DNA of 64,000 bases from contig SIAR01000008.1 in assembly GCA_009691705.1 (NCBI GenBank), forward strand, positions 1-64,000, in the 5' to 3' direction. This stretch comes from Phycisphaerales bacterium (GTDB lineage: Bacteria; Planctomycetota; Phycisphaerae; Phycisphaerales; SM1A02). Both the position numbers and the translations under genes were made by a program. Positions within the stretch are counted from its first letter, which is position 1, and each line of letters starts with the position of its first letter. Under the pieces are notes generated by a model. It made no database searches, was not told the origin of the DNA, and was given only the letters and a program-made list of their open reading frames with translations. This document shows positions 716 through 2,390 of this stretch, piece by piece.

Positions 716-1969
716 ATGCTCGAAGACTCGGATCGACGTGATCGACTAAGCCAGTTTGTTGACCTCGCCCGCATCTACCGCAAATGGACCAAGGTGCAGA
801 CGGCACAAGCGCTTGGACGCGAAGTTTCGAAAGTGGTTCCAGAGAGTGGAAATCCAAAACTTGATCTCGTGGTCGGACTCGCCGACGCACTCGATTGGGA
901 CATCGGCGATGTTGCCGAGGGAATATGGAAAGACGAAGCGCAAACGTATGTCAACCTCGAAGAGATCGCGGCACGGGGATTTGCCGTGCTCGACCGCGAA
1001 GCAATCGAGGCGCATCGCGCCGGTGACTATCGACGCATGACCGAACTTTCGCGCGCACTGCTGCTCGCCGCGCAAACTGGTGGTGAACGCGCAACGGCTG
1101 CCAACCGACTCGCGGGCGCATACGACGGGCTCGGTCGTTACACCAAGGCACTCGCCGCGCTTCAGCGTGGGCTCGGTGAACCAGGCGTTCCAGCGCACGT
1201 GCGCGTCATGCTCGAGGTGAACCTTGCCAACGCCCATTACACACTCTGGCATCTCGTCGAGGCGAATGCAGTCGCCGAAGGACTCGTTGGCCGCTTTCAC
1301 ACGCGGGCACCAGTCACACGCCCCGAACGGGTCGTGCATGCGTTCGGCCATTATGTGCGCGGACAATCGCAGCGCCGAATGATCGAGTCTGATCCACTGA
1401 GCGGCAACACGCACGCCGAGTGTGCGCGCGTCGATCTCGAGCTCGCGGCCGATGCCTATAAAGCGCTTGCTGAGGAGTTTGATGATCCGACGTACGCAGC
1501 GATAGCCAACACGTGCGCTGGTGCGATTTTCGAATGCGACGCGGCGCTGGGGTTGCTCGATCCAAGCACCGCTGCAGAGACGCTCGCGCTTGGACTCGAA
1601 CAGGTCGTCGATGTCGCCGCCTATCCACCTGGTGATTGGCTCGAGAGTTATGGTTGGTGCGCAGTCTTTGGCTGCAATGTTGCCCTTCGTGGATTGAGCG
1701 GCGCGGAATTGCACCGATTCATGGCGATCTTCTCAAACAAGGCCGCCGAAATCGCCGAACGCACCGACAACTGGTCGATGCGCGAGCGCGCCTTTACGTT
1801 CGAACACCTGCGCCGACAACGCATGAATGAGTCGTTGGGCTATGCGACCGATTGGCTTCTCGACGACGATGACGTTCGCACTGTTGCGGGAACAATGGGA
1901 CGGTTTCCATCATTCCGAGAAACGGGATGGAGAATTCTTGAAAACGCCCGGTCGCTTCACACAGCCTGA
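716..1969 (+). CDS. XRE-type HTH regulator with C-terminal TPR-like repeats
   Basis: 417 aa from ATG 716. Residues about 9-70 read as an XRE/Cro-like helix-turn-helix (KVQTAQALGREVSKV, then LDLVVGLADALDWDIGDVAEG). The rest is alpha-helical and alanine-rich with TPR-like pairs such as ATAANRLAGAYDGLGRYTKAL. An N-terminal HTH plus C-terminal TPR is the architecture of RRNPP peptide-responsive regulators (PlcR, Rap, NprR), but also of many uncharacterised XRE proteins. The frame opens at 599, but residues before 716 look like non-coding translation. A small exported protein follows after 19 bp, and the pair ends at a strong terminator, suggesting a two-gene unit. DNA binding is inferred from the fold; ligand and targets are unknown. 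Confidence 0.75.
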   Translation: MLEDSDRRDRLSQFVDLARIYRKWTKVQTAQALGREVSKVVPESGNPKLDLVVGLADALDWDIGDVAEGIWKDEAQTYVNLEEIAARGFAVLDREAIEAHRAGDYRRMTELSRALLLAAQTGGERATAANRLAGAYDGLGRYTKALAALQRGLGEPGVPAHVRVMLEVNLANAHYTLWHLVEANAVAEGLVGRFHTRAPVTRPERVVHAFGHYVRGQSQRRMIESDPLSGNTHAECARVDLELAADAYKALAEEFDDPTYAAIANTCAGAIFECDAALGLLDPSTAAETLALGLEQVVDVAAYPPGDWLESYGWCAVFGCNVALRGLSGAELHRFMAIFSNKAAEIAERTDNWSMRERAFTFEHLRRQRMNESLGYATDWLLDDDDVRTVAGTMGRFPSFRETGWRILENARSLHTA

Positions 1970-1988
1970 TTGGCAGAAGGAGTCATCC

Positions 1989-2279
1989 ATGCAAATGTTC
2001 AATGGAAAGATGAATCGTCGAAGAGCGTTGACAACAAGTCATCGCGCCAGCCTGAGTGCAATCATCGTGTGCGTCGCAGCAGGGTCGCTCTTCGTGGGCG
2101 TCACTCCAGCGTCGAGCGTTCCGCCCCGCGAGTATTCGCCCAGCACGGGAGCGCACCGATATCCGGCGGCATTCGAGCGCTTCATGGCAGTTCAATTCGG
2201 CGACCTGTGGATGCACACTGTGCAAGAGCAGGTCATCCGTCGCATGTTCGTGACGTGGCAGGACAAGCAGAAACGCTAA
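1989..2279 (+). CDS. Small exported or membrane-anchored protein of unknown function
   Basis: 96 aa from ATG 1989, preceded by AAGGAG at 1977-1982 with a 6-nt spacer, one of the best Shine-Dalgarno sites in the window. The same frame extends upstream to 1827, inside the regulator gene, but the ribosome site decides the start. Residues 1-20 are basic (KMNRRRAL), followed by a hydrophobic segment (SAIIVCVAAGSLFVGV) and a plausible signal-peptidase site at TPASS. The mature part of about 55-60 residues is aromatic and basic (FGDLWMHTVQEQVIRRMF). It lies 19 bp after the HTH/TPR gene and 70 bp before the terminator. I recognise no family. It could be a secreted signal, a small periplasmic protein or a single-pass membrane protein. 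Confidence 0.7.
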   Translation: MQMFNGKMNRRRALTTSHRASLSAIIVCVAAGSLFVGVTPASSVPPREYSPSTGAHRYPAAFERFMAVQFGDLWMHTVQEQVIRRMFVTWQDKQKR

Positions 2280-2350
2280 ACACCGCGCGACTTCACGCGC
2301 GGATGAGCTTCCGAGGTGAGTCACTGCCAGTGCCACCGCGGACAACCACT

Positions 2351-2390
2351 CTCCCCACACGAAACAGTTCGTGTGGGGAGATGTTTCTTT
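2351..2390 (+). terminator. Rho-independent terminator
   Basis: A perfect 13-bp stem (arms 2351-2363 and 2368-2380, arm CTCCCCACACGAA) with a 4-nt ACAG loop, followed by ATGTTTCTTT. The T-rich tail is on the plus strand, so it ends the HTH/TPR plus small-protein unit. On the minus strand the hairpin lies just beyond the lpdA stop and could also protect that mRNA's 3' end, but no U tract follows in that direction. Confidence 0.85.

Follow-up and report, generated by a model that had tools for sequence, protein, structure and literature searches.

A two-gene unit in the window (the whole 64,000-nucleotide stretch of Phycisphaerales DNA analysed here) encodes an HTH-TPR regulator and, directly downstream, a small protein with a predicted signal peptide. 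Related pairs occur across the class Phycisphaerae, and most linked partners carry the motif H[ST]xQ[DEG], whose presence co-varies with conserved residues of the second TPR of the regulator. We consider it probable that the regulator reads this motif in some form. That the pair operates as a two-gene peptide-sensing circuit with a full export-and-return loop is possible, though we place this slightly short of an even chance. The features of the locus, all given on the forward strand, are as follows.

681-698, +: palindrome CGGAC-N5-GTCCG, candidate operator or mRNA hairpin (compensatory changes)
716-1969, +: HTH-TPR regulator, putative receptor, 417 aa (ORF, class-wide family, AlphaFold2 model, dN/dS)
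758-916, +: divergent XRE-type HTH, residues 15-67 (hhalign, conservation)
962-1966, +: TPR superhelix, residues 83-417 (AlphaFold2, structural alignment)
1079-1129, +: TPR2 inner helix (residues 122-138) carrying the putative motif-reading patch Asn130, Arg131 and Asp137 (co-variation)
1977-1982, +: Shine-Dalgarno sequence AAGGAG of the small gene (sequence; position kept in relatives)
1989-2279, +: small exported partner, 96 aa (ORF, relatives, dN/dS)
1989-2117, +: predicted Sec signal peptide, residues 1-43, with presumed cleavage after ASS (n/h/c pattern heuristic)
2214-2228, +: HTVQE, the form of H[ST]xQ[DEG] in this genome (counts against controls)
2350-2381, +: strong terminator, probably active in both directions, separating the small gene from the convergent lpd (stem, folding z)

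The regulator ORF runs from an ATG at 716 to a stop codon ending at 1969, and a gap of only 19 bp (1970-1988) separates it from the small ORF, which starts with an ATG at 1989 and whose stop ends at 2279. AAGGAG sits 6 nt 5' of the second start codon. A divergent guanylate kinase gene (gmk) lies upstream, and a convergent dihydrolipoyl dehydrogenase gene (lpd) lies downstream beyond the terminator, a perfect 14-bp stem (folding z = -5.4) with convergent genes on both sides. This is the layout described in the first-pass annotation, an HTH/TPR gene and, 19 bp further on, a signal-peptide gene of 96 aa with the best Shine-Dalgarno site of the area; its terminator is also present after the pair, but with a stem of 14 rather than 13 bp. 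The host is a 2.0 Mb draft genome in which each gene is single-copy, and the relatives are Phycisphaerae, in keeping with the planctomycete origin that had been proposed.

Profile-profile comparison (hhalign) places the N-terminus of the regulator in register with 17 XRE domains (probability 89%, E = 2.7e-7), as the original XRE-HTH assignment would predict, and Arg35, Pro47, Lys48 and Asp50 are near-invariant in the family. No Pfam HTH model matches this region over the cut-off, and HTH_3 (PF01381) has zero matches at E <= 0.001 across the window's whole genome; the divergent HTH of the regulator thus escapes that model. Pfam and NCBIfam scans of the regulator returned generic TPR or weak HTH matches only, the best Pfam TPR match (E = 0.001) falling below the cut-off. 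The AlphaFold2 (AF2) model, computed with 32 relatives (pLDDT 90.5), consists of an N-terminal helical domain and a predicted C-terminal part that is clearly a TPR superhelix, and the TPR call is upheld by it.

Structural alignment of residues 83-417 of the model gives Z scores of 17.8 for NprR, 17.5 for phage Rap, 17.3 for RapF and 15.1 for AimR, placing NprR, Rap and AimR with the top-scoring bacterial chains (Z 15-18). LGN, MalT, OGT and designed TPRs align with similar scores. Because unrelated TPR proteins score equally, structural alignment alone cannot establish RRNPP membership, and the likeness of the modelled TPR fold to the RRNPP receptors is real but not specific. Four Asn residues are conserved in the family (Asn130, 74%; Asn169, 88%; Asn172, 78%; Asn321, 95%), and the TPR position numbering predicts that they lie on inner helices, consistent with the peptide-binding groove expected in the first-pass annotation.

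Besides the window's own genome, 17 of 18 genomes of the same genus contain the regulator, and the small gene adjoins it in all 17; the eighteenth, an assembly only 83% complete, has neither gene. A profile search finds the family in several families of the class Phycisphaerae, by name in Phycisphaerales genomes, and a 392-genome sample of the phylum yielded no member outside Phycisphaerae. Among the 128 regulator loci complete enough for a linkage count, 90 have an adjacent signal-peptide ORF, compared with 2 of 249 control genes (Fisher P = 3e-53, a value that ignores kinship and is inflated by related sequences, although the contrast is large nonetheless). An ORF was counted as linked if it encodes 55-260 aa, lies -20 to +60 bp from the stop, and has a Shine-Dalgarno-like site, a basic n-region and a hydrophobic core. 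The pairwise dN/dS values, 0.02-0.055 for the regulator and 0.15-0.37 for the small gene, indicate that both are real proteins under purifying selection and that the small one evolves far faster; taken with the linkage, they rule out a chance ORF. The gene order proposed at the outset is therefore conserved in the genus and across the class, and the two genes keep company, being absent together in one genus member. A linked small gene and a predicted TPR groove, the two points on which the first-pass annotation had staked its reading, are both present.

For some regulators no partner was found. Four loci (L182, L183, L184 and L194) retain the groove Asn, and their next gene, by eye, resembles a cation-efflux gene, with no small exported protein. 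Tandem regulators occur in L126, L119, L062, L130 and L132, where a fast-evolving partnerless copy, in most cases having lost the groove Asn, precedes a partnered one. One genome (G033) has six regulator copies (L052, L053, L054, L056, L061). Its locus L052 comprises two tandem pairs whose partners differ at their N-termini and are identical over a stretch at the C-terminus, a pattern suggestive of recent gene conversion.

Of 134 regulator contexts, 47 have gmk as a neighbour of the pair, 20 with gmk divergent and 27 with it downstream and co-directional; from gene order, this would represent a conserved core-chromosome position. Phage and plasmid collections gave no match to the regulator family, and on this ground, together with the chromosomal neighbourhood, a mobile-element origin is rejected. 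The proximity of gmk also fits a pair that locally controls guanylate kinase, and hence nucleotide metabolism, with the secreted protein incidental. We find this very improbable: loci of the branch with D- or G-type motifs were retrieved without a nearby gmk and still have the partner and its motif, and such a role leaves the motif unexplained.

The palindrome CGGAC-N5-GTCCG lies ~17 nt 5' of the regulator start and shows compensatory changes among 13 genus members (leaders L093-L106). Either an autoregulatory operator or a hairpin in the mRNA would fit these data; an Rfam scan gave no credible match. In each of four genomes the regulator leader is the only perfect match, and a regulon search with the palindrome returned nothing of that quality beyond the regulator's own site. 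Similar inverted repeats are visible by eye 5' of regulators from other genera.

The partner begins with a basic n-region and a hydrophobic segment, modelled by AF2 as a helix at residues 17-33, followed by an SPase I-like site near residue 43. Signal peptides were called here from hydrophobicity and charge with a simple rule in place of SignalP. Across the class the partners range from 59 to 256 aa, are extremely divergent and cannot be aligned as wholes; the length of the partner had been named as a caution in the first-pass annotation, and relatives reach ~250 aa. Many end in a PEP-CTERM-like tail, V-P-A-P-G...hydrophobic...RRRR (for example VPAPGALLLLGLAAVGRRRRRR), and others do not. The window's partner is without such a tail (P-x-P, hydrophobic stretch, basic end), and Pfam and NCBIfam scans found no PEP-CTERM match in it. 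Single-linkage clustering of the partners fused unrelated PEP-CTERM proteins, and the clusters were left unused.

What these proteins do share is H[ST]xQ[DEG], found in 72 of 108 linked partners against 0.35 expected when each mature sequence is shuffled; the pattern was chosen post hoc, and this contrast is to be weighed alongside independent controls. In 400 kb from two system-bearing genomes, the motif is absent from all 76 signal-peptide ORFs and all 5 PEP-CTERM ORFs, the control sets being drawn from two genomes plus the window. Pattern searches of whole-genome DNA placed all four HTNQ[DEG] sites of one genome (G171) inside its two partners and the sole site of another (G421) inside its linked partner. 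Partners from either side of the regulator tree carry the motif, mostly as HTVQE or HTMQE on the window's side and as HTNQD, HSNQG, HTGQD or HTAQD on the other. The remaining 36 of the 108 partners are without the strict motif, and several of these have near variants (HSDQ twice, ATNQDD, HNEQG, HTVNEE, SSMQEE). A general motif of secreted proteins is mostly ruled out by the control ORFs, but two unlinked secreted proteins, L274 (G351:C30) and L273 (G417:C441), have HTNQD or HTNQG soon after the signal peptide and keep that reading partly alive; they are possibly extra signals or proteins with a shared surface function.

These two proteins also favour an alternative in which the partner is simply a target gene of the regulator, its motif acts extracellularly in sorting, modification or surface binding, and the TPR domain senses something else, as MalT does. 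A regulator adjacent to its target gene is a common arrangement, and MalT domain III aligns to the model at Z 16.9. In the window clade, moreover, the E-type motif is part of a conserved folded module: residues 60-95 of the partner form a predicted helical hairpin enclosing it (AF2 pLDDT ~90), and a longer pattern, F..FM...G..W.HT.QE, is also conserved around it. We nevertheless judge this reading unlikely, given that the motif is missing from the other sampled signal-peptide and PEP-CTERM ORFs and that a plain target gene offers no reason for inner-helix residues of TPR2 to co-vary with the motif.

Such co-variation is what we observe. When 129 regulators were split by the strict motif in the partner, 83 columns were at least 93% conserved in the motif-positive set. 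Asn130, Arg131 and Asp137 are conserved at 99-100% in regulators with motif-bearing partners and at 44-65% in those without. The largest drop among the 83 columns is that of Asn130 (0.99 to 0.44), and Arg131, Gly134, Asp137 and Gly138 of the same TPR2 helix are within the twelve steepest-falling columns, whereas Arg35, Pro47 and Lys48 of the HTH hold at 98% in the motif-negative set. Asn130 has been substituted on several motif-negative branches lying apart in the tree and in only 1 of 72 motif-positive regulators. Overall divergence is greater among regulators whose partners have no motif, and the co-variation therefore makes a strong circumstantial case, short of proof, for reading of the partner's motif by the TPR2 groove.

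How the motif might reach that groove is a separate matter. All examined partners carry it internally: E-type motifs are separated from the C-terminus by 16-47 residues, and D/G-type motifs lie near the mature N-terminus, so two cuts would be required to free a peptide. Eight partners have it in two copies, sometimes in tandem. The tandem short copies and the free evolution of the rest of the protein favour a peptide; large partners, internally placed motifs and the helical setting of HTVQE in the window's clade favour sensing of the precursor or an unrelated role. In the former case the TPR regulator would bind the motif of the still unexported, full-length precursor and report whether secretion keeps pace, in the manner of FlgM or SecM, and neither a protease nor an importer would be necessary. 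Such export-coupled feedback accounts for the large partners, their PEP-CTERM tails and the internal, folded setting of the motif, as well as for a receptor and partner encoded 19 bp apart, and it shares the linkage, motif and co-variation evidence with the peptide circuit. We regard it as a serious rival, yet as unlikely; tandem pentapeptide copies are more typical of multi-copy pheromone precursors, and the free evolution of the remaining partner is not explained by feedback of itself.

In the peptide circuit that we prefer, the first gene would supply a cytoplasmic HTH-TPR receptor and the second a protein exported by Sec, with H[ST]xQ[DEG], here HTVQE, as its conserved functional unit. A motif-bearing piece would be cut free outside the inner membrane and re-enter through an oligopeptide permease. 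Opp-type binding proteins (SBP_bac_5) are present in 20 of 20 genomes, which would make import possible, but Opp is widespread and not diagnostic. The peptide would then sit in the concave TPR groove, with Asn130, Arg131, Asp137, Asn169, Asn172 and Asn321 as candidate contacts, and change how the HTH binds DNA, the palindrome in the receptor's own promoter being the probable site. Secretion, binding and signalling by the pair are what we infer from these patterns, and the circuit would further entail direct contact between peptide and receptor, proteolytic release, re-import, autoregulation and density dependence.

A broader and more doubtful extension is that the family constitutes class-wide cell-cell signalling in Gram-negative Planctomycetota, using HTNQD-type, pentapeptide-sized signals and an HTH-TPR receptor. 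The signals, sometimes in two copies, would ride in exported and often surface-sorted PEP-CTERM proteins, to be released near the cell surface and re-imported, while the TPR2 inner helix co-evolves with the code; the system would be either convergent with RRNPP or anciently related to it. If the pair does signal, TPR-receptor peptide communication would reach into a major Gram-negative group that is largely uncultured, and HTxQ(D/E/G) would be a candidate signal that can be synthesised and directly tested. If the precursor is sensed instead, the pair would represent an unrecognised export-feedback circuit.

Surveys of RRNPP peptide sensing have covered Firmicutes and viruses only (PMC10075063). 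Our literature search, made in open-licence papers, found none on RRNPP, quorum sensing and Planctomycetes and nothing relevant on peptide pheromones of Phycisphaerae, and PDB sequence searches with the regulator matched no RRNPP receptor chain. The mature RRNPP peptide is usually at the precursor C-terminus, with exceptions such as NprX, and RRNPP_detector expects precursors of 10-100 aa (PMC10075063); here the motif is internal, and the window's partner, at 96 aa, has relatives of up to ~250 aa. All RRNPP members have a conserved groove Asn that contacts the peptide backbone (PMC6458997), and RRNPPA propeptides are sometimes multi-copy (PMC9765709).

The closest parallels are NprR-NprX and PlcR-PapR, in which an HTH-TPR receptor gene likewise adjoins the gene of a Sec-exported precursor. 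The resemblance extends to the predicted TPR superhelix (NprR, 5dbk: Z 17.8 over 288 residues, rmsd 4.8), the conserved Asn residues, predicted here to be on inner helices, and the existence of multi-copy precursors. Unlike those Bacillota systems, the Phycisphaerae pair belongs to Gram-negative Planctomycetota, shows no detected sequence homology, keeps one core motif class-wide in an internal position, and has partners of 59-256 aa, many with PEP-CTERM tails. Rap-Phr and AimR-AimP share a TPR groove that reads ligands the size of a pentapeptide to a hexapeptide (Rap phi3T, Z 17.5; AimR, Z 15.1); Rap is without a DNA-binding HTH, unlike the regulator described here, and AimR is phage-borne, unlike a family with no phage or plasmid match. 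MalT, whose domain III resembles the model (Z 16.9), is a bacterial TPR-type sensor of a small ligand, with a LuxR-type HTH and an ATPase and no co-encoded exported peptide. With PEP-CTERM/exosortase substrates, many partners have the V-P-A-P-G...hydrophobic...RRRR tail in common, the window's partner excepted; the PEP-CTERM abstracts retrieved mention neither a linked HTH-TPR regulator nor the HTxQ motif.

The RRNPP reading of the first-pass annotation is supported in part: the domain architecture, the order of the genes and the predicted class of fold agree with it, and conserved Asn residues are predicted to line the putative groove. Because homology is undetected, the motif is not C-terminal and many partners are oversized, the pair is best called RRNPP-like rather than a proven member, and that it is RRNPP is not established. 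It does combine an N-terminal HTH (by profile comparison only) and a C-terminal TPR superhelix (AF2) with an adjacent small precursor, exported according to our heuristic, at 90/128 loci against 2/249, and it is plausible that this system of Phycisphaerae works like RRNPP.
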